Source of the DNA: Colwellia sp.
Lineage (GTDB): Bacteria; Pseudomonadota; Gammaproteobacteria; Enterobacterales; Alteromonadaceae
Reading direction: 5' to 3'
NCBI GenBank assembly: GCA_002733765.1
Contig: NVWU01000015.1
Coordinates: 48,919-112,918 of the forward strand
Length of the DNA: 64,000 nucleotides
The notes below the pieces were generated by a model that searched no databases, had not been told where the DNA came from, and was given only the letters and a program-made list of their open reading frames with translations. Positions 4,873 through 21,761 of the stretch are shown here, piece by piece. How positions within the stretch are numbered: position 1 is the stretch's first letter; the number at the start of each line of letters is the position of its first letter. A program made the position numbers and the translations under genes.

Positions 4873-5769
4873 CTAAATTTCTTCGTTTATTTCAAAATGA
4901 TGATTGAGTTGCTGTTTTAACACAGTAAAAAAATCATCGTTAGGCTTATCATTGATCAAGTGCGCTAACTCGGCGCCTATTGGGGTAAACTTATAAAACT
5001 GCAAAGCAATATTCGGCTTTTTACTGGTCAATTTTAGTGGTAAACCATTGTAGTTAAAGTTGAGTGTTTCGCCACTCGCCATCATACTCGATTCACTTTC
5101 TTGTTGATAAAGTAAATGATTGTCAGCTAAAGATAATATGTCGGCATAATTCAAACCAAAGTGACTTAAATTAATGTACCTTTGTCTATCTTTATTTAAA
5201 AAATTTAATAGACCCGGTTGTTGGTAGCTACCTGAAATAATACGTATATTTTTTTTACTTTGATCTTTTACTGCTAAAGAGCATGCCTTAGCCAGTAATT
5301 TTGCATCTACAACACTCATATCACGAAATACTTTTAATGCTTTGAGTGAATAGGAGCCAGAGCGAAATAATTCTCCCGCTAATATTTTAGCCCATAAATC
5401 TTGCATGGTTTTATTACTGACATTCTCAGCCAGAGTAATATAACGATTAAACCAATCTAAATCTGTTCTTTTATCAATTGATTTATTCGCACAAAAAGCG
5501 AAAGTTTTTTCCATAATACTTTCAATGTTTTTTTGTTTACGCAAGTTTGCCAATCGTTCCCGCTTTGCACTGCGATCTTCTATGGGCATTTGTTTTTCAA
5601 TTGGCAGTACCGCTGCTTCAAGACCAAATTGTTGAGTTATTTTGAAAAACTGGTCATGAGCTAATGAGTCGGTTGATTTTTTTTTAGGAGCACTACTGTC
5701 GATAGGAAGGTTACTATTGTTTTCACTTTGTTCGTCAACAACAGTAACTGAAGTTTTATTTGTTTTCAT
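4873..5769 (-). CDS. TIGR03899-like family protein
   Basis: Recognised family pattern (IESIMEKTFAFCANK...DLDWFNRYITLAENVSN..MQDLWAKILAGE). Confidence 0.65.
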   Translation of the reverse strand: MKTNKTSVTVVDEQSENNSNLPIDSSAPKKKSTDSLAHDQFFKITQQFGLEAAVLPIEKQMPIEDRSAKRERLANLRKQKNIESIMEKTFAFCANKSIDKRTDLDWFNRYITLAENVSNKTMQDLWAKILAGELFRSGSYSLKALKVFRDMSVVDAKLLAKACSLAVKDQSKKNIRIISGSYQQPGLLNFLNKDRQRYINLSHFGLNYADILSLADNHLLYQQESESSMMASGETLNFNYNGLPLKLTSKKPNIALQFYKFTPIGAELAHLINDKPNDDFFTVLKQQLNHHFEINEEI

Positions 5770-6161: not shown

Positions 6162-7394
6162 TCAAAAGCTATATACAAACCCCACATTAGCCCCTAAAGA
6201 GTACCAATTGACGCCGTTATATTGTGTGGTTAATACTGTATCATCAGCTAAAAATGTTGTATCAACTCCTTGCTTATGTGCTTGCCAATCTTGATACTTT
6301 ATTGAGAGGATGAAAGCGAGTTGTGCGCTTAATTGATACTCGCCTTTAACATCACCAATTAAGCCATAACCGACAGCTTTTTGAGTAAAACTTTTTGGAT
6401 GTGAAAAATCATTTCTTAAATTCCAGTTTGCTGTTGAATCATACTTTGCATAGTGATATTCAAGGCTTGCACTGAGTGAGAATGATTCGGTGAAGTTCAA
6501 TCTACTTTTTAATCCAACCCAAGGGCCAAACCATGTTGCATCATAGCTACTGTGTAAACCGGGAAATGGGCCAGTAGATGGGAGGGTAATATCAAGTGCA
6601 GGAATAGGAATAGATACTGTCTGATTGCCATCTGTTACTTTTAAATTTTGCGAATAATAACTTAACCCTATTTGAGGTCTAAAGTCGATATTCGGGTAGG
6701 TTGATTGTTCATTTAAAGGAACGGTCCAGTTATAGCCAGTTGAAGCTGATATGTCTAATACGGAGCCTTTATCGCCACTATTATTTGAACGTGAAAATTC
6801 AAAGGTTCGATTATCACCGAGGTAATCCGAATCCTGATTTTTACCGTTATAAATACTGCCAAAGAGAAGGTTTACATTGATCAGCCAATTTGATTCAAAC
6901 AACAGGGTTGTGCCGGCACTAATGGTGGCTATTTCAATGTCTTTCCAGGTTAATTCAGACAATATATTAGGCGTTCCATCTGGTCCGGCAATTGACCAAT
7001 CTAGATCATCCCGTCGATAACCCATGGCGATGTAACTTTCAGCTTTTATATAGGACAACGCGAGTTCTTCCTGTTCGTGAGGCTTTGCTCTGGTATAACG
7101 TTCAGCTAAAACCGCATTATTCTGCATTGTTGGTGAGTTATCAAATAAATGCACTTTAAGCAGGGGGGCTTGAGCGATGTGATTAACAACTTCTTTTTTC
7201 TTGCTCTGTTTAAATAAATGCATTTCAAGTAGGGGAGGTTGAGCAACTTGATTGATGCTTTCCTTTTGATCTTTTTTGTCAAAAATATGCATTGTTAACG
7301 GTGGTGCAGACCAAGTTACAGGGCTTAATACAAGCAGCGAAACGCCAATAATCCCATGAATATTTTTATTGGCCATTAGCAAGTGACTCTTCAA
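6162..7394 (-). CDS. Outer-membrane beta-barrel protein, omptin/Protochlamydia-outer-membrane (Pom)-like; probable start 7376
   Basis: Signal peptide (MANKNIHGIIGVSLLVLSPVTWSA), alternating beta-strand sequence ending in VNWYSLGANVGFVYSF with terminal aromatic residue; overlaps secretin stop. Confidence 0.65.
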   Translation of the reverse strand: MKSHLLMANKNIHGIIGVSLLVLSPVTWSAPPLTMHIFDKKDQKESINQVAQPPLLEMHLFKQSKKKEVVNHIAQAPLLKVHLFDNSPTMQNNAVLAERYTRAKPHEQEELALSYIKAESYIAMGYRRDDLDWSIAGPDGTPNILSELTWKDIEIATISAGTTLLFESNWLINVNLLFGSIYNGKNQDSDYLGDNRTFEFSRSNNSGDKGSVLDISASTGYNWTVPLNEQSTYPNIDFRPQIGLSYYSQNLKVTDGNQTVSIPIPALDITLPSTGPFPGLHSSYDATWFGPWVGLKSRLNFTESFSLSASLEYHYAKYDSTANWNLRNDFSHPKSFTQKAVGYGLIGDVKGEYQLSAQLAFILSIKYQDWQAHKQGVDTTFLADDTVLTTQYNGVNWYSLGANVGFVYSF

Positions 7395-9450
7395 ACGACA
7401 AGGTTGATATTAAATACATATAGGTTCTATCATTTGTGTTGCCTTTGGGCGCTAAGTTACTATTCTCTATTGAAGATGCCAACCAGCGCCCTGCTATATG
7501 TTGATAATCTACTGTGACAGATTTTTCTGCTGTATTAATGACTTCAACAACAGTGACAAACATACCGTCACGTTCCCAACTAGCAACCGCTTTAGTATTG
7601 AAATTAGCGTTATTAAATAGTGTATTTATATCTGCATTACTAAACCTGACTGGTTGATAGTTCTTACTTCTTATTCGTTCAATATTAGGTATACGTATCA
7701 TATCAGCTGCATATTGACTCATGTTCATGTATAACTGCTGTTTATTAACTTGAGGTGGCAACTTTGTTATAGGTGCTTTTTTACCAATAAATTTATTTTC
7801 GAACGGTACAGTATCAGGATGGCCACGATTTAGATCTTGATAAAAACGATTGTCAGTTTTTCTTATTCGTTCACTTTCACTTGATCGGACAAGAATTCTT
7901 GGTGTTATCAGTAATACGATTTCTGTCTCTTGTTCACTTTCAACCGTGCTTTTAAATATATTACCTAAAATCGGTATTTCAGATAAAATAGGAACCTTCT
8001 GAATATTGCTGCTTTTTTTATGTCTAATTAAACCCCCTACCGCTACCGTTAAATTATTTTTTGCCACAACGGTGCCAGTTAATCTTGAGGAATTAACGGT
8101 GTCGACGGGTAAATTTAAAATACCACCGGCACCATCACTAATAGGTAAACTAGCACCGCCAGGGTTAATTTCTGAGCTTTCTTGTTCAAGTGCCAATGCC
8201 ACTGTGTTATCAGCATTGATTCTTGGCACAATACGTAAGGTAATACCTATTTCTTGTAATTCTGTTTCAGTCTCAATAAAACTAGGTGAAATGACAATAC
8301 CATTGTCAATGGTCGCAGGGTTAAAAGTAAAACCACGTACAAGTAAACTCTCTTCACCAATAAACAACTCTGTTTGGCGATGATTAGATGCTAGCACCAT
8401 TGGGTTGGACAGCACTTTGATACGTTTGTTCTTTTCTAAAAATTCAATGTTGGCACGTAAACGCGTATTTAAAAACTCATAAATAATAGAGCCTGAATTA
8501 GGGAGGGCATTATTACCGAGTTTTATTGGGCGGATAGACTGATTATTGCCACTAGGCTGTAATTCAAAATTAAATATTGAGGTAAAGTCATCGCCTAGTG
8601 TAATACTGATTATTTTCATTTCTAGCATCACTTGTGGTACGGCGATATCTGTTTTCTTCACTAAATACTTGATTGCCTTGAGCACAGTTTTATCATCAGT
8701 TCGCACAATAATCATACTGTGTTCATTGTTAACCGTAATGTAAATGGGCTGAACTTGGGCACTAACCTGTTCTAATACCTGAGCATTAAGTGTGGTGGCG
8801 CCTGTCATTTTCTGCGATAGCAGTTCAAATTGATCAATTGTTAATTCACTGGTATCGAAAGATTTATTGGTTGAATTACTTGTTGAGTTATTATCAGAGC
8901 GCGATGAACGATTATTATTCGTTGAGCGCGAGTTTCTAACATTGTTTGATGAACGGTTTGAATTACTATTGGTACTATTACGCGATGAGCTATTTGAGCC
9001 GCCTTCTATCTGCTCACCTAGCGATAAAATAACGCGACTGCCGTATAAGTCTTCAATAGATTGCGCAATAATTCTGACATTGGCATTTCTTACCTTAAAT
9101 ATTTCAATATGTTCGCTTTCACGTATCACCAAGTCTTTCGCATATTCTTCGCGTGTCATTAAACGATAGGTATTGGTGTCATCATCAAAGCGAAACCATA
9201 AATCAGTAATACGACTTATCGACTTTAAGGCATTTTTAACCGTGATGTTTTTCAAATGAATAGTGACTTTTTTCTTAGTTGCTGCTGGCGTGGCAATAAT
9301 ATTACTGTTTGATAACTCAGACAGTATTCGCACCACATCAATCAAGTTGGTATTATTAAACTCTATTTCTTTCACTTTAGCCGCAGCGATAACTGACTGA
9401 GAAAGTAGTAATAAACATATAATTTGAACGATTAAAATAAGCTGTTTCAT
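7366..9450 (-). CDS. Secretin (MshL/PilQ/GspD-type) of a T2SS/T4P-like system, with Ser/Asn-rich linker and C-terminal extension
   Basis: STN-like N-domain (KNITVKNALKSISRITDLWFRFDD), secretin signature (VAVGGLIRHKKSSNIQKVPILSEIPILGNIFK...LLITPRIL), signal peptide. Confidence 0.9.
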   Translation of the reverse strand: MKQLILIVQIICLLLLSQSVIAAAKVKEIEFNNTNLIDVVRILSELSNSNIIATPAATKKKVTIHLKNITVKNALKSISRITDLWFRFDDDTNTYRLMTREEYAKDLVIRESEHIEIFKVRNANVRIIAQSIEDLYGSRVILSLGEQIEGGSNSSSRNSTNSNSNRSSNNVRNSRSTNNNRSSRSDNNSTSNSTNKSFDTSELTIDQFELLSQKMTGATTLNAQVLEQVSAQVQPIYITVNNEHSMIIVRTDDKTVLKAIKYLVKKTDIAVPQVMLEMKIISITLGDDFTSIFNFELQPSGNNQSIRPIKLGNNALPNSGSIIYEFLNTRLRANIEFLEKNKRIKVLSNPMVLASNHRQTELFIGEESLLVRGFTFNPATIDNGIVISPSFIETETELQEIGITLRIVPRINADNTVALALEQESSEINPGGASLPISDGAGGILNLPVDTVNSSRLTGTVVAKNNLTVAVGGLIRHKKSSNIQKVPILSEIPILGNIFKSTVESEQETEIVLLITPRILVRSSESERIRKTDNRFYQDLNRGHPDTVPFENKFIGKKAPITKLPPQVNKQQLYMNMSQYAADMIRIPNIERIRSKNYQPVRFSNADINTLFNNANFNTKAVASWERDGMFVTVVEVINTAEKSVTVDYQHIAGRWLASSIENSNLAPKGNTNDRTYMYLISTLSFEESLANGQ

Positions 9451-9459
9451 CTGATGTAA

Positions 9460-9954
9460 TTACCTTTGAACCCTAATTGAACCGAGCATGCCGGCTTCTA
9501 CGGTGACACTAAAACGCGTGATCTTGGTAATACGAATGGCACTATTAGGGGTAGCAGGATCAATATTTATTTCATCACCTTCGTGAATTAAATAGGTACG
9601 ATTATCATCAACTTCTAGTAAGGCGACAGGCTTATTATCTTTATTTGTATAGCCACGCAGGCGCATTTTGGGCAAGTTAGTCTTCGAAGGTGAACGCATA
9701 AACCCATAGCCCGCAGCACCAAGTGCACTTCCTTTGATTAACATCGCATCAAACATTAATGAGCTGGGCGTAAATGGATCTCGTATCGCTCGAATGGCTT
9801 CATATTGCTGTTGTGCATTCATGACATTATTTGTTGGTAATGAATTTGTTGGTAGTAGGTTGGTTTGCACTGCATTTATTGTTAATGGCACTAAGCTCGT
9901 ACTGACAATAATGAATAGTCTACAAAGTGATTTTTTATCTAATTTAATGTGCAT
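9460..9954 (-). CDS. PilP/GspC/MshK-like inner-membrane/periplasmic assembly protein
   Basis: Signal anchor, RDPF motif, small beta domain (RLRGYTNKDNKPVALLEVDDNRTYLIHEGDEI); sits between secretin and GspF genes. Confidence 0.65.
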   Translation of the reverse strand: MHIKLDKKSLCRLFIIVSTSLVPLTINAVQTNLLPTNSLPTNNVMNAQQQYEAIRAIRDPFTPSSLMFDAMLIKGSALGAAGYGFMRSPSKTNLPKMRLRGYTNKDNKPVALLEVDDNRTYLIHEGDEINIDPATPNSAIRITKITRFSVTVEAGMLGSIRVQR

Positions 9955-9956
9955 TA

Positions 9957-11177
9957 TTATCCGCCTACTAATGAAAATAAAGCTTGAAAAAAAGCGTAGT
10001 AAACGAAGCCCACCATCGCGCCAATAACTAAAATCATCACTGGTTCGATTAGCGCAGTCATACGTTTAATCGCAATATCAAGACGTTGCTCATAATAAAT
10101 GCCCATTTCTTGTAAAATTTTATCGAGACTACCAGTGCGTTCACCAACGGCAATCATTTGCGTCACCAGCACAGGAATTCTAGGATGCTGAAGGCTACTT
10201 GCCATATCTTTACCCGTTAACACTTTCTTAGCAGCATGTTGCATTTTGTCTGAAAATACGCGGTTAGTTAATAATTTCCCTGTGATTTTTAATGATTGAT
10301 ATACAGTGACACCACTGGCTAACAAGGTTGATAAAGCCCAGGTGACTTGCCCCATAGAGGCGGTGGTTAGCATGGGGCCAATCACAGGAATGCGTAGCGA
10401 AAGATAATCAATGATTAACCGGCCACGTTTGGTTTGATAAGTGAGTAGTAGCAGTACAATGAATACAATTACTACTGTAATGATCCAAATGCCATTTTGT
10501 TGAATATAATCAGAAGTATTAATCAATGCCTGAGTTGATGGCGGCAATTTTTTTCCTTGCCCAAGCAGGAAATCAGCAAACTTAGGTATAATTTTTAGCA
10601 TCATAAAAGCCGCAACACCAAGGGCGGCAATAACCACAATAACGGGGTAAATCATGGCATTAATCATTTGTGCACGCAGCGCAGATTTTTTTTCTAAATG
10701 GGTGGCTAACCGTTCCATAATTACGTCTAAATCACCAGTGTTTTCACCGGCGACCATCAGGTTAACTGCCATGTCAGGAAAGACACTAGGGTATGTTTTC
10801 ATGGCCGCAGATAATGTTTGGCCTGATTCGATATCTTTTAACATTAGCTTTGAGGTTAACCTCAAGCGAGCACTCGATATTTGGGTGTTGGTTAATGTTA
10901 AAGATTCGGTTACGGCTAAACCTGCTCGTAACATAAAGGCCATTTGTCTAAAAAAGAAAATGAGCGCAGACGGTGATACAGAACGTTGTGAAGCGAGCCA
11001 GTCAGAAAAATTCTCTTGGCCGCCAAAGCCGTCTTGCCCTCGGGCTGGTTTTATTGCTAATACGCGTAAACTGCGCTCTCGTAGCGCTTGTGTCGCAGCA
11101 TTAATATCAGCGGCTTGTTGTTTGCCCGTTAATTCATTGCCAGCGGCAGTTAATACCGTATAAGAAAATAATGGCAT
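9957..11177 (-). CDS. Type II secretion / T4P inner-membrane platform protein (GspF/PilC/MshG family)
   Basis: Two GspF-type repeats (FFRQMAFMLRAGLAVTESL; ALSTLLASGVTVYQSLKI), three TM segments. Confidence 0.93.
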   Translation of the reverse strand: MPLFSYTVLTAAGNELTGKQQAADINAATQALRERSLRVLAIKPARGQDGFGGQENFSDWLASQRSVSPSALIFFFRQMAFMLRAGLAVTESLTLTNTQISSARLRLTSKLMLKDIESGQTLSAAMKTYPSVFPDMAVNLMVAGENTGDLDVIMERLATHLEKKSALRAQMINAMIYPVIVVIAALGVAAFMMLKIIPKFADFLLGQGKKLPPSTQALINTSDYIQQNGIWIITVVIVFIVLLLLTYQTKRGRLIIDYLSLRIPVIGPMLTTASMGQVTWALSTLLASGVTVYQSLKITGKLLTNRVFSDKMQHAAKKVLTGKDMASSLQHPRIPVLVTQMIAVGERTGSLDKILQEMGIYYEQRLDIAIKRMTALIEPVMILVIGAMVGFVYYAFFQALFSLVGG

Positions 11178-11179
11178 GG

Positions 11180-12823
11180 TTACTCTCCTATCGCCTGACG
11201 CGTTTTAACAATCGTTACACCGCGCACTTCAGCAAGCGTGGTCATACCTTTTAGTACCTTTTGACAGCCATCTTCCCACATAAAGGTTAAGTTATGTCCT
11301 GCCGCTTGCTCTAGTGCTTCTTCGCTGCAGCCTTGTGAAACTAATCGCGCTAAACTTTCGTCAAACCACAATGTTTCAAATAAAGCTAAGCGACCTTTAA
11401 AGCCAGTGCCTTGGCAATTTGCACAGCCAATTGAGTCGAATAACGTCAGGGTTTTATCATTACAATCCAATTCGCTTAATTCATCATCCGTTGCCGGCCT
11501 TACTTGTTTGCAGTTGTTGCATAAGCGTCTTATTAGCCGTTGCGCAATTACCGCGGTCATGGTTGAGCCAATCAAAAAAGCTTCACAGCCAATATCAATC
11601 AATCGTGTTACTGCGCTCACAGCATTATTGGTATGTAAGGTTGAAAACACTAAGTGCCCAGTCATTGCCGCTTTTACTGAGACATCAGCGGTTTCATAAT
11701 CGCGAATTTCTCCTACCATTAACACATCGGGATCATGTCTAAGCAATGAGCGTAATGCTTGGGCAAAGCTAATTTTTAAACCAGTTTGTAGTTGTGATAC
11801 ACCGGGTATAACATATTCAATGGGGTTCTCAACCGTCATAATATTAATATCAGGTTTATTGATTTCTTGTAAGGCAGCGCACAAGGTGGTCGACTTACCA
11901 CTACCTGTGGGGCCGGTCAGTAAAATCATGCCATAAGGTTTTTGAATGGCTTGCCTGAACCGCTTAAGATCAGCGGCTAACATGCCTAAAGCAGTTAAGG
12001 TCATGCCGCCAGATTGTTGGCCCAATAAGCGTAAGGTAATTCGTTCACCTAATCGCGTTGGTGCCGTGGCAACACGAATATTAAATTCGCTATTGATGGG
12101 CGCAGCCAGTTTATAACTGCAGCCACCATCTTGTGGCTGACGTTGCTCGGCAATGTCTAAGTTGGCTAGCACTTTTATACGAGACACTAAGCCTGCCGCT
12201 ATGGTAGCATCGGCTTCTATTGGGTAATCACGTAACTTACCATCAATGCGTAACCTGACTCTTAGGCCTTCTTCTTCAGTAACAAAATGTATATCTGAAG
12301 CTTTGTTTAAAAATGCTTCTTTGATGATTTCATCGAGTAAATTAACCAGATCAATTTCATCGGTTGCACTGGCATCTGCTGCTTGGTTGGCATTGTGGTT
12401 AAACTGTCGTTTAATCAGCAAACTTAGGTAGTTAATATCAGTCATTGCCAGTGGCAGTAGCTGACCTAATAAGCGTTGAATAGTATCTATAGCGGTGCGA
12501 TCGGTGGGATCTGCAACCACCAAAAATGCCTTGTCGTTTTGCTTGACTGGTAGGATTAACTTACGCTTAACCAAGCTTACAGGTAACTTTTTAATTAAGC
12601 TCTCATCAATAGAAAGTGCCACGGGTTCTAAATATGACAAGCTGTTTTTCTCTGCCACTGCGCGATGTAAGCTGCTGATTGGCAAACGATAATGTGCAAG
12701 TGTCAGTTCAATAACAGAACAGCGTTTACGGCGTGCTTCAGCCTTTAGTTTATCTATTGTTGCTATGTCAATAAGCCCTGAATGAAGACCGGCCTCAAGT
12801 AATTTTTCGTCAGTTAACGGCAT
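11180..12823 (-). CDS. Type II secretion / T4P assembly ATPase (GspE/PilB/MshE family)
   Basis: Walker A GPTGSGKSTT, Asp box DPDVLMVGEIRD, His box TGHLVFSTLHTNNA, tetracysteine CNNC...CANC, GspE N-terminal domain. Confidence 0.95.
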   Translation of the reverse strand: MPLTDEKLLEAGLHSGLIDIATIDKLKAEARRKRCSVIELTLAHYRLPISSLHRAVAEKNSLSYLEPVALSIDESLIKKLPVSLVKRKLILPVKQNDKAFLVVADPTDRTAIDTIQRLLGQLLPLAMTDINYLSLLIKRQFNHNANQAADASATDEIDLVNLLDEIIKEAFLNKASDIHFVTEEEGLRVRLRIDGKLRDYPIEADATIAAGLVSRIKVLANLDIAEQRQPQDGGCSYKLAAPINSEFNIRVATAPTRLGERITLRLLGQQSGGMTLTALGMLAADLKRFRQAIQKPYGMILLTGPTGSGKSTTLCAALQEINKPDINIMTVENPIEYVIPGVSQLQTGLKISFAQALRSLLRHDPDVLMVGEIRDYETADVSVKAAMTGHLVFSTLHTNNAVSAVTRLIDIGCEAFLIGSTMTAVIAQRLIRRLCNNCKQVRPATDDELSELDCNDKTLTLFDSIGCANCQGTGFKGRLALFETLWFDESLARLVSQGCSEEALEQAAGHNLTFMWEDGCQKVLKGMTTLAEVRGVTIVKTRQAIGE

Positions 12824-12832
12824 ATCATCATC

Positions 12833-13525
12833 CTATAACGCCAACACTAATTCAGTTTTTAAGGCTTGAGCATAACCACGTAATGGCGTGATGGCTTGTT
12901 GCTCTATTTTTAATCTGACCACAGTAACTTGCCAAGGTAAATTGTCTAATTCTTGAATAAAGGCGCGTATACTTCGGTATTGTCCAACGAGTTCAATGCG
13001 CTGTAACGGCCGGTAATAGAGTGTGCTAGGCGCCATTCTATCGAGCCAGCTATAAGAGGCAGGTAATGCGATATCTTTAGTGCTTTCAATTTTCGTGGTT
13101 GATTTTTTCTTCCTCTTTTTCTGAGCAATAACCTTTACCGCAGGTGCCTTACCTTCAATGCGTTCGTTAGCGGTAATGCGCACTTTAAGATCGCGTGCTA
13201 GTTGAGAAACCAATACTCTGAGTTCTTGGGAATCTATCGGTGCTAGACGTTGTTGCACACTAGTCGCCATATTACTAATGAGTGTCATGGCTTGTTCTTG
13301 ATCATCTAACTGAGAAATAAGTTGTTGAACATCTTGATCAGGTTCATTAGGAATTCTGGCCTTCAACAGCTTGCGTGCTGTTGTTTCAGCGCTGCGCTCT
13401 AGTGAAGTGATATCTTGATATTTAGGAATAAATCGCAATAGGCTATAAGCACCAAAAATAATGACAAGTACAGTGATCGCAATTAAAATTTGCTCACTTG
13501 TGGTTAACTTTGCCAACTTGTTCAT
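12833..13525 (-). CDS. PilO/GspM-like protein
   Basis: N-terminal TM helix plus coiled coil and C-terminal ferredoxin-like segment (YRPLQRIELVGQYRSIRAFIQELDNLPWQVTVVRLKIE). Confidence 0.75.
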   Translation of the reverse strand: MNKLAKLTTSEQILIAITVLVIIFGAYSLLRFIPKYQDITSLERSAETTARKLLKARIPNEPDQDVQQLISQLDDQEQAMTLISNMATSVQQRLAPIDSQELRVLVSQLARDLKVRITANERIEGKAPAVKVIAQKKRKKKSTTKIESTKDIALPASYSWLDRMAPSTLYYRPLQRIELVGQYRSIRAFIQELDNLPWQVTVVRLKIEQQAITPLRGYAQALKTELVLAL

Positions 13526-15306
13526 AATAGCGGCGTCCTATTTGATAAAGACTCAGCACTTACTAACTTTACAATGCGTAAGGTCACGGTAAAACCCTCT
13601 AAATTTAACGGGCCAGTTCGTCCTGCAACATTACTATCTAATATTTCAAGACCCCATGGCTCTGCTGCCTTCTTCAAGGTTTGGATAAATTGCTGGCCAG
13701 CCGTTTCTGATAATGCCCATGCTTGCAGGTTAAAGCTTTCAATTTCTATCCGATTATCTTTTTTTCGTCTTAGGCTGCGCAGCATAAAATTAGCTCGTTT
13801 ATCATATTCATCTATTGAATTAATGATAATGTGTTCACTAACGGCTCCTTGTAAAATACCAAGAATTACCTGTACCAACGCACTACGCTCTGGTAACTCT
13901 TCACCAAAAAAAGTAAAGCGCTGTTGTTCCCGTTGCTTATCTGACTTTCGGTCTTTTAACTCTTTTTTTCGCTGTTTTACTTGCTTAATATCACCGTTAA
14001 TTCGCTTCATGGCTGAATCAATAATTTGCCATCGGGTATCTATTTCATTTTTATGAGATTCGACAATACTACCCCGCACTAATAAGAACGCTTCAGCAAA
14101 TAGTATCAATAGCAAAATCACACTAAATAGTATGCCGCCTCTTATATTTGGTCGGTGTAATAGGGTAGGTAATGGCCCGCCTAAACGTACATGACTAAGC
14201 CAATTACTTTTTCCCATGCCTAAATAATGTAAACCTGCTCCCATCATGCCAGGGCTAGATTTTTCAGTGATAGCGTTATTTTCAATAGTAATAACGTCAC
14301 GATCTAAGGCGCTGGCTAAGTCGTGAATTGTAGTGTGATCGTTGGCAGACCAGTTGGCTAAATAGATATTGGCGTCATTAGCAACAGTCAAGGTATGAAA
14401 GCCTTCTAAACAGCGCTCAAATGTTTTTTTTGATGCGTCTAAATATAAATGTTGCTCGACAATATGATTGTCTTTGGTACGCATGGTAAATGACATGCTG
14501 CCATGTGATTCGATTAATACTTGTTCTTCAGCGGTATCCGTTAATAAACTTGCACTTGAGCCAGCCAGTGGATACATTGCTTGTAGTTTAACCCCTTGCA
14601 TCTGAAATACTGTGGTCCAACGCTGAAGTAGTGATTTAGTCACTGCGCTCACTTGCCATAAATACGTACCGGGAATATCACTGACTTCACCTTGAGCAGA
14701 CCAGCCACAGTCAATTAACTCATCATCTGATTTTAACCACTCTTGTCCTGCTAAACAGGCATTGAGTTGGCTACGCTTTATATAACCTAGTTCTTCAGCT
14801 AAATCACCAAAACGGCGTAATGAAAACTTTTCCATCAGTTCTAGCCCGCCGGCAGGGTTGGCTCTGCCTTGTTGCAAATCCATTACCGCATCGGCCTGCT
14901 CTTTGGTCATATAACCTCGAGCAATAAGTAAGTTGCCAACAGAGCATTGTGTCGCATGCTGAACTAATAACGGCTCTGCCTCCCAACGGATCAATTCATT
15001 CATTTGTGCTAATGGACGCGGTTTTTTAGGGTCTATTTGTAATTCAAGTAGGGTTGATAATACGGTCGGCGATAATAAAACAGCATCACCTCCTTCCCAG
15101 CCATCGTCTTTAAGACTTTTTATTACGTCGGCAACTGCATCAGCCATATCGGCTTGCTGCGATTCTGCTGTTTGCAATACCGCTAATTCATTACCAGCAC
15201 GGGTAAGCACGGCCGCACGCAGTAAAAAGCCATCGGTTTCGCACACTAAAATTGATTTAGCTTTACCGAATTTAAAAAGTGATTTAAGCATTATTGAATC
15301 GCCCAT
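13522..15306 (-). CDS. GspL/PilM-PilN-like assembly protein with inserted GspE-N/MshEN-like repeats
   Basis: PilM-like N-terminal part, single TM (GGILFSVILLLILFAEAFLLV), PilN-like coiled coil; overlaps the PilO-like gene by 4 nt. Confidence 0.75.
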   Translation of the reverse strand: MGDSIMLKSLFKFGKAKSILVCETDGFLLRAAVLTRAGNELAVLQTAESQQADMADAVADVIKSLKDDGWEGGDAVLLSPTVLSTLLELQIDPKKPRPLAQMNELIRWEAEPLLVQHATQCSVGNLLIARGYMTKEQADAVMDLQQGRANPAGGLELMEKFSLRRFGDLAEELGYIKRSQLNACLAGQEWLKSDDELIDCGWSAQGEVSDIPGTYLWQVSAVTKSLLQRWTTVFQMQGVKLQAMYPLAGSSASLLTDTAEEQVLIESHGSMSFTMRTKDNHIVEQHLYLDASKKTFERCLEGFHTLTVANDANIYLANWSANDHTTIHDLASALDRDVITIENNAITEKSSPGMMGAGLHYLGMGKSNWLSHVRLGGPLPTLLHRPNIRGGILFSVILLLILFAEAFLLVRGSIVESHKNEIDTRWQIIDSAMKRINGDIKQVKQRKKELKDRKSDKQREQQRFTFFGEELPERSALVQVILGILQGAVSEHIIINSIDEYDKRANFMLRSLRRKKDNRIEIESFNLQAWALSETAGQQFIQTLKKAAEPWGLEILDSNVAGRTGPLNLEGFTVTLRIVKLVSAESLSNRTPLL

Positions 15307-16898
15307 GTTAGTACTGAGTTATTCACTGGTAAGGTACTTCTTGGTATCAAACTTATACTCTTGGGGTTGTCGGTATTATTTATAGTGCCGTCATCACAAT
15401 GACCATCAAATAATTTCCCTTGTTCAACCCCTACTTCACAAACAATTGTGAAGGATTTTTCACCGCCACTAAAAGTGGATGAGGCAGGGATTGTTAAGGT
15501 ATTTCCGACCGCTGCAGGGGTATTGCTTGGAATGGTAAAGGTATCACCGGAAGCTATAGTGATAGTGTTGCCAGTTCGGATGAACGCTTGTGATACGGTA
15601 ATTAAGGGCTCTTGAAAAAAAACTGTTGTGTCAATAAGCTGCGGAGCCGTGCCGGTAAAAGTAATCGTTGCGCCATTAGGCAAGCTGACAGTATTAGTTG
15701 ATAAACCACTACCAATAGGGAGAATGATGGCAGGCTTGGTAAAGTTTTTGGCTGAGAGTATTGCTGGCGCAATGTAATGGTTGTTAATGGTTAAAGTTGT
15801 TGTGCCGCTGAAAGTGAGTGTATCAACAGGATCTCCGTTATTGCTTGTTAAGCTGCCATTTTCAGCTGTGTAGCTACTTGCTTGTATAGTTAATTTACAA
15901 TCTGGTACGCAGTGACTACCAATAATAAACTGACTAGATACACTAGCACTAGCACTAGCACTATCGGTATAGGTAATGACAGTACCTGAAGTAAGGGTGA
16001 CACTGTCGTTAGGGGAGCCAGTTGTTAATGTGGCACCAGAAACAAATTCGAGTGTGTCGTTATTCTCAACTTCCATTGTGCCGTATTTAGAGAGTAGCAA
16101 GGTGTTTTCACTGGGGAAGCTATTGCTAAGTTGAGCGGAGCTATCGCGTTCTGCAGTCGTATCTAGTTCACTGTTTGTATAACTTAAAATAATCCCCTCT
16201 GACGGTGAACTTAGTCGAAGGCGTAGTTCATCTTGCTCAATAACAATATGGGTGGCTTGTTCATTTGTGAAAGTAACATCAATATTTTGCCAATCAGCGC
16301 CGAGTGTTACTTGGTAATCAGCAGTATTAACAATATTATCTACGCTGATATCGTCAATAGCATCAGCTATATTGAAACCCTTACTTGTTATTGTTATTGC
16401 CCCAACAGTTGTTGTGAAATCTAAATTCCAACCAGAATTTTGCCAATCATCACTGCCTTTACCTGAACCATCGCCAGAGTTACCATAACCATCACGAAAA
16501 TGTACTTCACCGCTTAGCTCACTATTTCCCATTAAATAAGGGCCACGCCAGCCGGCCCACACTTGTGAGTAAACATCTTGCTTCCACGGAGGCAGGGGTT
16601 CTGTATTAAAGCAATCTATTCGGCTAAGTAATTCACGTAAGCACTTAGGCAAGCGTCCCATATCTGCGGCAAAACCACTGATTTCAGGGCGACCGTTAAT
16701 GGTTCTGCTAGTATCACCAATAATGGCGGTGCGAATCATTTTAAGACGCTGTTTGGTTGCATCATATTTTGCCTGATCTTCAACGCCTTGTGTTAAAAAT
16801 AGTGTTGACGATGCCATTAAAGCCAATAGAAATAGTACTAGCACTATTTCTAATAAGGTGAAGCCTTGCTGGCGAGATAAGCTTAATTTAATAGACAT
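15291..16898 (-). CDS. Oversized pseudopilin with long beta-rich C-terminal region
   Basis: Class III prepilin motif QQGFTLLEIVLVLFLLALMASSTLFL, then about 500 aa with Thr/Ser-rich beta repeats. Confidence 0.8.
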   Translation of the reverse strand: MSIKLSLSRQQGFTLLEIVLVLFLLALMASSTLFLTQGVEDQAKYDATKQRLKMIRTAIIGDTSRTINGRPEISGFAADMGRLPKCLRELLSRIDCFNTEPLPPWKQDVYSQVWAGWRGPYLMGNSELSGEVHFRDGYGNSGDGSGKGSDDWQNSGWNLDFTTTVGAITITSKGFNIADAIDDISVDNIVNTADYQVTLGADWQNIDVTFTNEQATHIVIEQDELRLRLSSPSEGIILSYTNSELDTTAERDSSAQLSNSFPSENTLLLSKYGTMEVENNDTLEFVSGATLTTGSPNDSVTLTSGTVITYTDSASASASVSSQFIIGSHCVPDCKLTIQASSYTAENGSLTSNNGDPVDTLTFSGTTTLTINNHYIAPAILSAKNFTKPAIILPIGSGLSTNTVSLPNGATITFTGTAPQLIDTTVFFQEPLITVSQAFIRTGNTITIASGDTFTIPSNTPAAVGNTLTIPASSTFSGGEKSFTIVCEVGVEQGKLFDGHCDDGTINNTDNPKSISLIPRSTLPVNNSVLTWAIQ

Positions 16899-17677
16899 AA
16901 CACTTGATCCAAGGCTTGGCCATTTATATCTACTGGTGTATTGCAGATATCATCACTAGGCTCATCATGATCTTCAAATACACCATCTTCACCTGCACTG
17001 ATAAGGCGCGGTTGATAGACCGTTGGCGTATTGGTGATATCAACTAATAACACGTAAGGCGTTCCGGCTTTGTTAAGTACGTTACTCGTAGTTTGAATTG
17101 ACCATTCAACGCCGGAGTTTGTTTGATCGGCAGTATAGGGATCAGCAATCGCCCAGACAGGGTTAGTAATATCAGCTAGGTTTACGGTATTAGCGCTAAG
17201 CGTTAAATAGCCATTTTTTCGTTGTAGATAGGGGCCCTGCCAACCGCGTTTGGTATCTGGGTTCCAACCATTGTCTAGGGGGTCTTCAAATAACATCCAA
17301 AAATTTGCCGGGTGTTGGCACCACGCTATTATTGCTGCCGTGGTTACGCCGGCTTCAGCAGGAAAATTAAACTCACTATTAGGTTGGGTGATAGAGCCAC
17401 CATTTACGTCATCAGTACAATCATAGCGGCCTTGCGTGGGAAAGCTCTTAGTGCCACTGTCTTTACGAAACTGGATTAACGCTTTATGTATTTGAGTCAT
17501 TTCAAACTTAGCGACATCATAACGGCTTTGGTCTTGCACACCGTCATAGCTTGTTATTGCTACGGTTGCGGTAATGGCCATTAAGGAAATTACCGTTAAT
17601 AATTCCATTAAGGTAAAGCCACTTTGGCTACTATGCTGTTTGAAATTTTGTAAAAGAAAAAACAATAAACACCCCAT
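16883..17677 (-). CDS. Pseudopilin (prepilin-type N-terminal cleavage/methylation domain)
   Basis: SGFTLMELLTVISLMAITATVAI followed by GspG-like fold segment (GWQGPYLQRKNGYL). Confidence 0.85.
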   Translation of the reverse strand: MGCLLFFLLQNFKQHSSQSGFTLMELLTVISLMAITATVAITSYDGVQDQSRYDVAKFEMTQIHKALIQFRKDSGTKSFPTQGRYDCTDDVNGGSITQPNSEFNFPAEAGVTTAAIIAWCQHPANFWMLFEDPLDNGWNPDTKRGWQGPYLQRKNGYLTLSANTVNLADITNPVWAIADPYTADQTNSGVEWSIQTTSNVLNKAGTPYVLLVDITNTPTVYQPRLISAGEDGVFEDHDEPSDDICNTPVDINGQALDQVLCLLN

Positions 17678-17856
17678 TTACTTGTTTTTATATTAAAGTT
17701 AAATATTGTTTAACAGCATGAAAAAATTAAAAAGATAAAGCGGGATAAGACAATGAAACTTATCCCGCAGTATCGAATGATGGATACCCGATAAACCATC
17801 ATTCATCACAGCAGAAGCATTCACAACGCTCTGATTAATAGTCCGACTAGTAACTA

Positions 17857-19008
17857 TTAATCATCATTCGTTGAAGCAGTTGCATCAGCAGCGATTTGGT
17901 CAATAGTACGACCTTCAGGGCCAACAACAGCGATTAAACGCGCTCTTCCTAATATTTCATCTGCCGTAATAGTGCCATCATCATCAGCATCATGACCTAC
18001 TTGAAATAAAGCAATGGCACGAGCGTAATTATCTCTCGGGTTAATATTATTAGTACCCACGGTAGGCACTTGTGCAATTTCAACCGCATTACCTAAGGTT
18101 GCACCAGGAACTTCTTTACCTATACCTAAAGCCACGACTAAATCACAGCCTTCAGAGTCAAGGCCATCACTGATAAGATTTAAAACGGCATTATCAGAAG
18201 TTGAATTACCATTAAAGTCATCTGTTATGTCAACAGCGGTAGCAAAGTTTACTTCGCAACCATCAGTACCGTTACCTCCTGATGGCACGATAGAAATGGC
18301 CGCACCAGCGGTGCCTATAGCAGCATCATCAAACTCCATTGCACCGGTGTCGGTAAATTCAATTTCAGAGCCTGGGTTAGCACTCACTTCAGGGTAACTT
18401 TCATTCATTGCTAGATTAGGTACGAAACCGTCATTCCAAGTAGTTGTACTTTGTACTGACTGTAGCTCTTCTAAGCCAGCTTCTCTTAATGAGCTAAAAA
18501 TTGCAGCAGCGGTCGTAGATGCAGTAGCAGTAACTGTCTCTGCTTGCGCAAAAGTTAATTGACCAAAGAAATCTCTTGTTTCAGTAGACATCAATTGCAT
18601 AGCACCTGCACCGGCAGTTAATACACCATCAACATTTGCTAAGTTATCAAACTGCTCTGGATACTCTCCAACAATAGAGCGGTAATTACGTAATGAGCCT
18701 TCTAAGGTATTTACTGCCGTTGCTGCTGAGGCGTCACGGGCATTTTCACCAGCACCATCATAAGCAACCAGTGCAGCGGTTGATAAGGTAGCTAATAAGG
18801 TGATTACTACTAATAACTCTAGTAAGGTGAAACCTTTTTGTTTCGCTTGTAATTTTTGTGCTTTAGCACGCATAGCATCATCTTTAAGTATTGATACATT
18901 GGCATTTTTGAACTTGGCAATCGCTATTTTTAGTTGATGAACATTCATCTTATTATCTCTCTTTTGGGGGCATGCCTCATCTGTCTCGTACAGACTATTG
19001 GTCATCAA
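17857..19008 (-). CDS. Prepilin / major pseudopilin-like protein; probable start 18948
   Basis: KGFTLLELLVVITLLATLSTAALVAYDGAGENARDASAATAVNTLEGSLRNYR, GspG-like, first gene of the series. Confidence 0.8.
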   Translation of the reverse strand: MMTNSLYETDEACPQKRDNKMNVHQLKIAIAKFKNANVSILKDDAMRAKAQKLQAKQKGFTLLELLVVITLLATLSTAALVAYDGAGENARDASAATAVNTLEGSLRNYRSIVGEYPEQFDNLANVDGVLTAGAGAMQLMSTETRDFFGQLTFAQAETVTATASTTAAAIFSSLREAGLEELQSVQSTTTWNDGFVPNLAMNESYPEVSANPGSEIEFTDTGAMEFDDAAIGTAGAAISIVPSGGNGTDGCEVNFATAVDITDDFNGNSTSDNAVLNLISDGLDSEGCDLVVALGIGKEVPGATLGNAVEIAQVPTVGTNNINPRDNYARAIALFQVGHDADDDGTITADEILGRARLIAVVGPEGRTIDQIAADATASTNDD

Positions 19009-19066
19009 TTTTTGTTGTTTTTGTCAGATGTAAACCCACTTCACACTCTGTTTCTTATCTACGATT

Positions 19067-19252
19067 TTATGGTGCATCCACCACAAACCGGTATTGCTTA
19101 CCACAGTGAATGATGACTTCTTTTTGTTTCCGTTTTAGGATATTGACCTCAACTCTAATCTCGCCAAAACCATCGTGCGCTATAATTTCATCTAATAACG
19201 TTAATAGTTTTTCTTTTGCTAAATTGTTGCTGTTTTTTATCGTTGTAGTCAT
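19067..19252 (-). CDS. Small uncharacterised protein (61 aa)
   Basis: ORF MTTTIKNSNNLAKEKLLTLLDEIIAHDGFGEIRVEVNILKRKQKEVIIHCGKQYRFVVDAP; compact protein-like composition, co-oriented upstream of the pilin cluster. Confidence 0.6.
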   Translation of the reverse strand: MTTTIKNSNNLAKEKLLTLLDEIIAHDGFGEIRVEVNILKRKQKEVIIHCGKQYRFVVDAP

Positions 19253-19800
19253 CCAACACTCTTCAAGTTACTGTGCTTTCTTGGAGTGAAATAGTAGCTG
19301 TACAGTCAATAATGACGTTATAGGAAAAATTCCTTTTAGTGACGCAAGGGCAGAGGTTTTAGGATGAAAGCCAATGATTAACGTGGCTTTAATTTGACTA
19401 AAATACTTATATAACAATGTGTTACAAAAATGTTTTTTTGTGCCGTTTAGCTAGTTAATTAGGTTGCTTATCTGCGGATTTAGTTAGTTTTTTTATGAAA
19501 AAATATTGGCTTAATTTCTTGTGTAGTTCAAAAGTATGATGAATATTAATCAAAGGTATAGTGCATAAGAAAAAAGTTGATGCGTATGATTAATTTTATC
19601 AAATAGGTTTGCTGACGAAATTTGCGACAAGTGTTGCACTTTCTTTGCCTGTCTTTATTTGTTTTTAGCAAGTGATTGTTATTTATAGCTATTATTATTT
19701 GGTCTAAATGTTGCTTAGTCGTTGTACTAGTAACGATAGTTGCCATGCTTGTTTGTTGCCTTTGTTTTATCTCGCTCACGTTTTGATTGGAATTTTGTAA

Positions 19801-21114
19801 ATGAGTATACGCGCACTTATCAATCTTAGAATTATTGCCTCGGTGATATTAATTTTAATATTCAGTGCCCTTATTGCTATTTGGCAGGCGAGAAACTCAG
19901 TAGAAAAAGAGGTACATTCCTCAATTAATTTAGCCGTGCAAATGATTGAGTTTGGCTTTAATCAACTGCCTTCCTCAAGAGTAGAAAATGATGCCTGGTT
20001 ACAAAAAATAGCCACTATGCAGCCAGTAAGGCATTTGCATATTTCTATTGCAGATAATAATAGCGAGCGAAAAAATAATCTTCAGGCTCTTTATCTAGAT
20101 GATGAGACAAATACCACACCATACTGGTTTATTAAGGCTGTTACGGTGGATTTTTTTACTCATAATTATGATATTAAAAGTGCCGATGGTTCAATAAAAA
20201 CCATTTTTATTACTGCCAACCCGATGGATGAAATTAGTGAGGCATGGGGAGAAACTAAAGCTTTTTTTTGGTCTATTGTGCTAATGCTTTTAATTATGTT
20301 TTTTACCGTTAACCTTGTTTTTAATTCTATGTTGCAGGCTGTGAAAGCTATTTTGTCTGGTCTTCGTCAAGTTGAAACCGGTCATTTTGATCATGTGTTG
20401 CCTCACTTTAAAATCAGTGAGTTTGATGCGATTGCGAGAGAAATTAATGGCATGTCGCTAGCATTAAAAACAGCGCAACAAAATAACCAAGCTTTGGCTC
20501 GCCATACTATGCAAATTCAAGAAACAGAAAGACAAAATATGTCTCGTGAATTACATGATGAAATGGGGCAATCGTTAACGGCAATTAAGGCGATGGCAGT
20601 AACATGCCAGCAAGTCGATACTGATGTTAAAGCAGTGACAAGCTCTATTGTTGATATTTGTGATCATTTATCAGTGATTGTCCGCTCAATGATGAGAACA
20701 TTGCATCCACTTAGTTTAACTGAGCTTGGTTTAGGGGCAACACTGTCTGAGCTGGTGAGAGAATGGCAGCGATGTAGCACAGATCTCCAGTTCGACTTAA
20801 ATTATGATGACGAGTTAGAAAAACTGAGTCATGATATTACCATTCATGTCTATCGAATTGTTCAGGAGTGTTTAACCAATGTTGTTCGACATGCAAATGC
20901 TTCTGAGGTAGCTATTTTAGTGGTTAAACGTGGTTATCAAGTATGGATTACCGTATCGGACAATGGCCAAGGAAAGCAATTAAATTCTCCCGGTTTTGGT
21001 TTGTTAGGAATGCGCGAAAGAGCAGAAAATTTAGGGGGCACATTTGAATTTGAGTCGGTCCTAAATGATGGTGTTAATGTTGTTGTACAATTACCTTACT
21101 GGGAAGATAACTAA
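19801..21114 (+). CDS. NarL-family sensor histidine kinase with LapD/MoxY-like N-terminal region
   Basis: Two TMs around a periplasmic domain, HAMP-like segment, HisKA_3 (ETERQNMSRELHDEMGQSLTAIKAMA), HATPase (DNGQGKQLNSPGFGLLGMRERAENLGG). Confidence 0.88.
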   Translation: MSIRALINLRIIASVILILIFSALIAIWQARNSVEKEVHSSINLAVQMIEFGFNQLPSSRVENDAWLQKIATMQPVRHLHISIADNNSERKNNLQALYLDDETNTTPYWFIKAVTVDFFTHNYDIKSADGSIKTIFITANPMDEISEAWGETKAFFWSIVLMLLIMFFTVNLVFNSMLQAVKAILSGLRQVETGHFDHVLPHFKISEFDAIAREINGMSLALKTAQQNNQALARHTMQIQETERQNMSRELHDEMGQSLTAIKAMAVTCQQVDTDVKAVTSSIVDICDHLSVIVRSMMRTLHPLSLTELGLGATLSELVREWQRCSTDLQFDLNYDDELEKLSHDITIHVYRIVQECLTNVVRHANASEVAILVVKRGYQVWITVSDNGQGKQLNSPGFGLLGMRERAENLGGTFEFESVLNDGVNVVVQLPYWEDN

Positions 21115-21761
21115 TGAAAACAGACAAAATAAAAGTCTTATTAGTTGATGATCACGCGGTTGTTAGAGCTGGTTTTAGAATGTTATTAGCTTCTCAAGAT
21201 TTTATTGGTGATATTGTTGATATTGAGCGAGGTGAACTTGCCACCAAAGAATATCAACGCTTTCAGCCAGACGTGGTAGTGATGGATTTATCTATGCCTG
21301 GCATTGGTGGCTTAGAAACTATTCGTCGTCTTTATAAATATGATGCCAAGATACTTATTTTAGTTTACAGCATTCATGATGAAACAATTTATGTTGAACG
21401 TGCTTTAGAGGCGGGCGCAAAAGGCTATGTTAGTAAAAATAGTGCTGCAGAAGTACTAGCGACAGCTGTTGCAGTTATCGCGAGTGGTAAGCGTTATATT
21501 GAACAAGGTTTATTACCTGAATTAAATGATGTACGCTTCAGCGAAACTAACAACTCGGACCATACGCTCAATGTATTATCACCCCGAGAATTTGATGTGT
21601 TTCGCTTATTATCAAAGGGTCTAAACGCGCATAATATTGCTAATGAGCTTAGCCTTAGTTATAAAACAATTTGCAATTATAATACTCAAATTAAAAATAA
21701 ATTAAATGCCAATACATCAGCTGATCTTGCTCATATTGCTATGGTACATAACATTATTTAA
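21114..21761 (+). CDS. NarL/LuxR-family response regulator
   Basis: REC domain (VLLVDDHAVVRAGFRMLL, DVVVMDLSMPGIGG), C-terminal LuxR HTH (LSPREFDVFRLLSKGLNAHNIANELSLSYKTICNYNTQIKNKL). Confidence 0.93.
   Translation: MKTDKIKVLLVDDHAVVRAGFRMLLASQDFIGDIVDIERGELATKEYQRFQPDVVVMDLSMPGIGGLETIRRLYKYDAKILILVYSIHDETIYVERALEAGAKGYVSKNSAAEVLATAVAVIASGKRYIEQGLLPELNDVRFSETNNSDHTLNVLSPREFDVFRLLSKGLNAHNIANELSLSYKTICNYNTQIKNKLNANTSADLAHIAMVHNII

Follow-up and report, generated by a model that had tools for sequence, protein, structure and literature searches.

The window, a stretch of 64,000 nucleotides from the approximately 4.05 Mb genome of a Colwellia sp., contains a minus-strand operon at positions 6162-19252 with 11 co-directional genes, most of which overlap or abut one another, and whose predicted products together form a complete type IV filament machine. 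The genes and associated features are as follows.

19801-21114, plus strand: histidine kinase with a LapD/MoxY-type periplasmic domain, divergent from the operon
21114-21761, plus strand: response regulator of the LuxR/NarL type, divergent from the operon
19319-19335, minus strand: palindrome AAGGAATTTTTCCTATA, a putative operator, present upstream of p61 in 8 loci
19067-19252, minus strand: p61, a small protein conserved across a 19-sequence alignment, with a predicted alpha-beta-beta-beta structure
17857-18948, minus strand: major pilin with a GspG-like N-terminus and a probable 39-aa leader (N_methyl E=3e-8)
17740-17768, minus strand: hairpin with arms GCGGGATAAG and CTTATCCCGC and a T-rich stretch after it, terminator- or attenuator-like, directly 3' of the pilin gene
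16883-17677, minus strand: minor pilin of 264 aa (N_methyl E=2e-5), retained in nearly all complete loci
15291-16898, minus strand: large minor pilin of 535 aa (N_methyl E=3e-5), N-terminal part conserved, C-terminal part variable
13522-15306, minus strand: protein L, resembling PilM/PilN or GspL in position and layout, with a tandem MshEN-like motif inserted at approximately aa 121-190
12833-13525, minus strand: protein M, PilO/MshJ-like (weak PilO match, E=0.001)
11180-12823, minus strand: extension ATPase with MshEN (E=1e-10) and T2SSE (E=9e-119) domains, in its own clade
9957-11177, minus strand: inner-membrane platform protein, T2SSF (Pfam E=7e-52)
9460-9954, minus strand: PilP-like protein (weak PilP match, E=0.025), position kept in relatives
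7366-9450, minus strand: secretin (Pfam E=6e-33) with a C-terminal DUF3438/TIGR03749 (TraK-like) domain, in its own clade
6162-7376, minus strand: Pom barrel (PF17251), its N-terminal part bearing three PxLxxHxF repeats, the ORF being listed from a TTG at 7394

Translation of the major pilin, whose ORF is listed from 19008, probably starts at a conserved ATG at 18948, 20 codons inside that frame, which yields the 39-aa leader, and that of Pom probably at the ATG at 7376. An earlier sequence-only reading of this DNA had placed and ordered the 11 ORFs in the same way and had described the order as non-standard, in agreement with the comparison to known systems. As that reading had also stated, there was no peptidase, PilT or pilotin among the locus ORFs by Pfam annotation, nor was there a GspC. 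Two A24 peptidases are encoded in the window's genome, sited at the T4aP locus and the Tad locus; the locus itself is without a peptidase and must borrow one, as had been proposed, and a PilD is encoded elsewhere in the genome. The identical gene order, including the barrel, was present in Colwellia sp. DT_18 and in Alteromonadales bacterium alter-6D02, which belongs to another family. All 11 genes had dN/dS values of 0.04-0.23 between the window and DT_18, p61 included (0.18), and the operon is thus under selection. A DUF2806 gene (window 4873-5769) adjoins the locus and is also a neighbour in DT_18; it is not thought to be part of the machine.

The combination of a T2SSE-type ATPase, a T2SSF platform and a class III signal pilin places the locus within the type IV filament superfamily. 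Membership in the T2SS, T4aP and MSHA systems was assessed using the NCBIfam equivalog cut-offs as thresholds, with the ordinary T2SS, T4aP, MSHA and Tad loci of the window's own genome as controls. The ATPase, platform and secretin of the machine all fell below these cut-offs, whereas the genome's own GspE, GspD, PilB and MshL were above them. The machine ATPase scored 478.8 bits against GspE (cut-off 630; own T2SS GspE 719.5) and 454 against PilB (cut-off 675.65; own PilB 838.5), and the machine secretin 123 bits against GspD (cut-off 351; own T2SS GspD 538), 107 against MshL (cut-off 250; own MshL 289) and 90 against PilQ (cut-off 284). In quick trees with thin sampling of PilB and MshE, the machine ATPases formed a single clade (SH-aLRT 100, stem 1.46) against references that were mostly GspE-type with few PilB-/MshE-type, one such 'reference' being the same gene as a system entry, and the machine secretins formed one fully supported clade against GspD, MshL and one further group. 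This further group comprises secretins of 677-727 aa from Colwellia relatives (L014, L016, L021, L024, L026, L032) and branches apart from GspD, MshL and the present machine.

Membership in the T2SS, for which gspC is mandatory in the published model (PMC6668835), was rejected on the absence of GspC and the failed GspE and GspD cut-offs, and membership in the T4aP on the failed PilB and PilQ cut-offs. The MSH model has mshA, E, G, L and M as mandatory genes (PMC6668835), and MSHA membership was rejected on the lack of an MshM-type ORF in the locus by Pfam annotation, the failed MshL cut-off and the separate clades. The phylogeny that the sequence-only reading had proposed as a check thus nested neither protein in the GspE/PilB/MshE or GspD/MshL clades and, together with the cut-offs, bears out its view that the machine is not a standard T2SS, MSHA pilus or T4aP. 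Systems with an ATPase, platform and pilin that fall outside the specific models are termed 'generic' (Denise et al. 2019, PMC6668835), and by the criteria tested here the locus fits this class. It resembles the 'generic' systems in the defining ATPase, platform and major pilin, plus a secretin, and differs from them in p61, the DUF3438 tail, Pom and the palindrome, which are in no model there (PMC6668835).

A close secretin (73-100% identical) was found in only 3 of 100 relatives, the same three that carry PF17251, and the machine in 5 of 369 class genomes and 2 of 399 phylum genomes. A scan of named genomes found protein L in Colwellia DT_18, alter-6D02, Methylobacter, Methylomicrobium, several Methylomonas, Methylophaga, Methylophilaceae, Neptunomonas, Motiliproteus, Pontibacterium, a Nitrospina and a Gemmatales bin (planctomycete). 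The machine is rare yet spread over several phyla. Its order (p61, pilin, minor pilins, L, M, in some cases PilT, E, F, PilP, secretin) was largely kept, except that no p61 was found in the loci of Methylophilaceae and Gemmatales and that the secretin stands at the front in Methylomonas and its nearest relatives. Loci of several relatives that include PilT constitute a sub-type II. A second related system is present in the window's genome (contig C15:26000-48000; L046, L047), with PilT, a second extension-type ATPase, a MoxR-DUF58-transglutaminase set, no barrel and a p61 homologue 59% identical over 46 aa. A third sub-type, in Methylobacter marinus (L188/L189) and G347 (L186/L187), has a shorter L, a secretin followed by Pom, and the minor pilins afterwards, with MoxR-DUF58-transglutaminase genes added in G347. 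No description of such a system was found in the literature on methanotroph or Colwellia machines, and the machine family is apparently undescribed so far.

The mature part of the major pilin is roughly 300-335 residues long among the relatives compared and has two cysteines, and the 39-aa leader is conserved in Colwellia-type loci. The hairpin behind the pilin gene has a folding z of -5.1, and hairpins occur at the same site in L068, L073 and L079 and, by sequence, in L065 and L066. By windowed identity, the first ~150 aa of the 535-aa pilin are conserved and the remainder is variable or missing in relatives, which makes a role for this pseudopilin as the tip of the fibre plausible. O-antigen-ligase-like genes (pilin glycosyl ligase superfamily) are in or beside several loci, one of them, in G258, with the same palindrome upstream, and a glycosylated surface fibre would fit these neighbours. 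An exported DUF2927 protein is encoded beside Pom and a ligase gene in C14-03 (L073:20839-21630) and downstream of a near-palindrome in G258 (L198:1556-2353); as a shared cargo it was rejected, because only 4 of 18 system-bearing genomes have it and Colwellia does not.

Protein L had no meaningful Pfam match, and profile comparison with the genome's own GspL and MshI gave no match; its C-terminal part weakly resembles another MSHA-locus protein (profile comparison, E=0.003). Its insert aligns with the N-terminus of the genome's own MshE (hhalign E=3e-6, probability 88), and two 24-residue MshEN-like motifs are recognisable, with the first-position Arg kept in the second motif and replaced in the first by Ser or another residue in most members. 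The insert is absent from protein L of the third sub-type. Nucleotide sensing by this insert is possible, and a role for c-di-GMP is doubtful because L has lost the first Arg and the machine ATPase has no RLG motifs.

Ahead of the pilin in this machine family lies the ~60-aa protein p61, whose core HDG-x-G...ILxRxQKEVIIHCGKQxR is nearly unchanged in 19 sequences from Pseudomonadota to Nitrospinota; this protein and the DUF3438/TraK-like tail of the secretin are hallmarks of the family. There was no Pfam family match and no solved relative for p61. An AlphaFold2 model (pLDDT 78) gave one helix and three strands, and a Foldseek search with it returned nothing with E<0.001, the top matches being mostly RNA-binding alpha-beta folds, which are suggestive only. 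An action of p61 in the expression of the downstream gene is a guess. As a strict marker of the machine p61 was rejected, p61-like genes away from the machine adjoining other exported-protein genes in three sampled genomes (L150 in G169, L151 in G298 and L148 in G347).

The kinase-regulator pair also adjoins the machine locus in DT_18, alter-6D02, NORP60, C14-03 and G258, and the response regulator alone lies beside several Methylomonas loci; from this conservation the pair appears to belong to the machine unit. The dyad AGGAATTTTTCCT upstream of p61 does not vary between the window, DT_18, alter-6D02, NORP60, C14-03 and Methylophaga and differs by one base in G258 and G218, and the palindrome is a hallmark of the window's sub-group. 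Whole-genome scans found a single perfect copy of the extended palindrome in each of five genomes, the window's among them; NORP60 had a copy with one mismatch, and the reversed pattern gave no match. An additional one-mismatch copy, within an ABC transporter gene on the window genome's contig C12, is probably due to chance. In G258 the dyad recurs upstream of the O-antigen-ligase-like gene and, with one mismatch, upstream of the DUF2927 gene. In Methylobacter marinus, a LapD/MoxY-type kinase-regulator pair and a YncE-like beta-propeller gene lie together away from the filament locus (L194:120-2545), with a one-mismatch palindrome between the homologous kinase and the beta-propeller gene. The simplest reading is that the palindrome would be the binding site of the adjacent response regulator.

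Pom matched PF17251 over profile positions 2-285 of 285 (E=1e-71, 241.9 bits; gathering cut-off 22.4). Its model (pLDDT 77, pTM 0.74) is an omptin-like barrel nearest to OmpT (Foldseek E=3e-17, TM 0.75), as the sequence-only reading had suggested. With regard to the Asp-Asp and Asp-His catalytic pairs of omptin proteases, a D-x-D motif (D188, D190) is conserved, but the sequence alignment to OmpT is unreliable (hhalign E=0.02). PomS of Protochlamydia, a PF17251 member, is a measured anion-selective porin (PMC3561449); the window's Pom is of the same family, but is encoded behind a secretin and has an N-terminal repeat extension. Genes of the family were present in 30 of 369 class genomes and mostly stood alone. 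Pom lay directly behind the machine secretin in 8 of 26 secretin loci (the window, DT_18, alter-6D02, C14-03, Methylophaga, G218, G347 and a second locus in Methylobacter marinus), and these secretins fall in three separate regions of the secretin tree. It is accordingly not a core part, and was rejected as a universal component on its absence from the other 18. The sequence-only reading was therefore right in describing a machine of non-standard type but gave the barrel too much weight: its treatment of Pom as a defining part is not upheld, and most homologous loci are without Pom, a pattern it had named as counting against it, although adjacency to the secretin still recurs. Nor is there any sign that the barrel is a secreted substrate, as Pom carries a signal peptide of its own and one member of its family is a measured porin.

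Five linked Poms have PxLxMHxF-type motifs close to the N-terminus of the mature protein, in DT_18 within the broken 5' pieces of the gene, with a spacing of exactly 23 aa in the window (31, 54, 77) and C14-03 (20, 43) and partly so in alter-6D02; the Pom of M. marinus has one such motif by eye. No other ORF in the examined loci has repeats of this type. These repeats and the gene order suggest that Pom may dock on the secretin. In a bolder proposal, possible but clearly short of probable, the machine family is an undescribed clade in which a barrel of porin/omptin fold is docked to the secretin through tandem N-terminal peptides to form a composite outer-membrane exit complex, with p61, the DUF3438-tailed secretin and the kinase-regulator-palindrome switch as further hallmarks. 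The likeness drawn here is to porin I of Legionella Dot/Icm (PDB 9nh1), which by its PDB title was seen in situ with the secretion machine and has a barrel fold similar to the Pom model (Foldseek E=3e-12), but which belongs to a different machine, type IVB secretion.

Alternatively, Pom may be a passenger without a functional tie, its place behind the secretin being due to chance or operon hitch-hiking. The 18 loci without Pom and the mostly lone occurrence of the family are consistent with this, as is the Pom of the DT_18 bin (L065:17940-19167), which is in three pieces with two breaks, one near a run of ten A, beside an intact secretin, sequencing error and decay being indistinguishable here. 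However, the passenger explanation is considered unlikely given the direct adjacency, which recurs in three separate regions of the secretin tree, the restriction of the repeats to linked Poms, the purifying selection on the barrel (dN/dS 0.19 against DT_18) and the grouping of six of the eight linked Poms in one clade (98/95). The placement of the G218 and G347 Poms in that tree was unresolved, so Pom may have been recruited to machine loci repeatedly.

For the machine as a whole, a type II-like secretion system, in which a short periplasmic pilin piston drives one or a few folded proteins out via the secretin, is similarly improbable. By equivalog profiles the pilin N-termini are GspG/GspH-like and the ATPase and secretin score nearest to GspE and GspD, and, with the GspF-type platform, these are features shared with the genome's own T2SS (L103); the absence of PilT from the locus points in the same direction. 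However, the locus is without GspC, GspN-type genes or the GspI-K set and has a PilP-like protein instead, the genome already encodes a full T2SS, glycosyl ligase genes adjoin the loci of relatives, and no cargo gene was found common to the loci. A divergent MSHA pilus locus is very improbable. The MshEN-bearing ATPase, platform, secretin, peptidase-free locus and PilO-like protein M (25% identity, E=6e-9, to a protein from the genome's own MSHA locus, L105) are shared features, but this ordinary MSHA locus is present in the same genome, and the machine has neither MshM nor other MSHA genes, a different gene order, and an ATPase and secretin that stand apart from MshE and MshL.

The best explanation, put at slightly better than even, is that the locus encodes a distinct type IV filament sub-family, namely a non-retractile surface pilus that borrows PilD and has Pom as an optional secretin partner. 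The sequence itself shows the full extension machinery, the separate clade, the linked two-component pair and the shared palindrome. That the machine makes a pilus which is exposed on the surface and does not retract, and not a short secretion pseudopilus, is inferred from the conservation of gene set and order across several phyla, the separate clades and failed cut-offs, the post-pilin hairpin, the large exported pilin, the ligase genes and the presence of a PilP-like protein without GspC; the broader explanation draws also on the single-copy palindrome in five genomes, the recurrent Pom adjacency and the exclusivity of the repeats. Counting against it are the weakness of PilP and of the PilM part of L by sequence and, for the non-retractile reading, the PilT of sub-type II; PilT/PilU elsewhere in the window's genome could act on this fibre. 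Under this explanation, the kinase-regulator pair would turn on the p61-pilin operon through the palindrome, the post-pilin hairpin would hold the pilin in excess, and the 39-aa leader would be cleaved by PilD from the T4aP locus. The fibre would be extended by the single ATPase on the F/L/M platform, where the MshEN-like insert may allow L to sense a nucleotide, and would exit via the secretin; Pom, where present, would lie next to the secretin in the outer membrane, with its N-terminal repeats as a periplasmic tether, and would stabilise or modify the exit site.

These results indicate that the locus is a real, rare and coherent type IV filament variant that probably builds a pilus. The type IV filament superfamily thereby gains a coherent, testable sub-family with members that include cultured methanotrophs, such as Methylomonas sp. 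LW13, and p61 is among the most conserved parts of the machine, yet belongs to no known family. The palindrome opens the question of regulation to a direct test and, if the barrel docks on the secretin, this would be a new means by which a secretin lacking a pilotin is equipped or stabilised.
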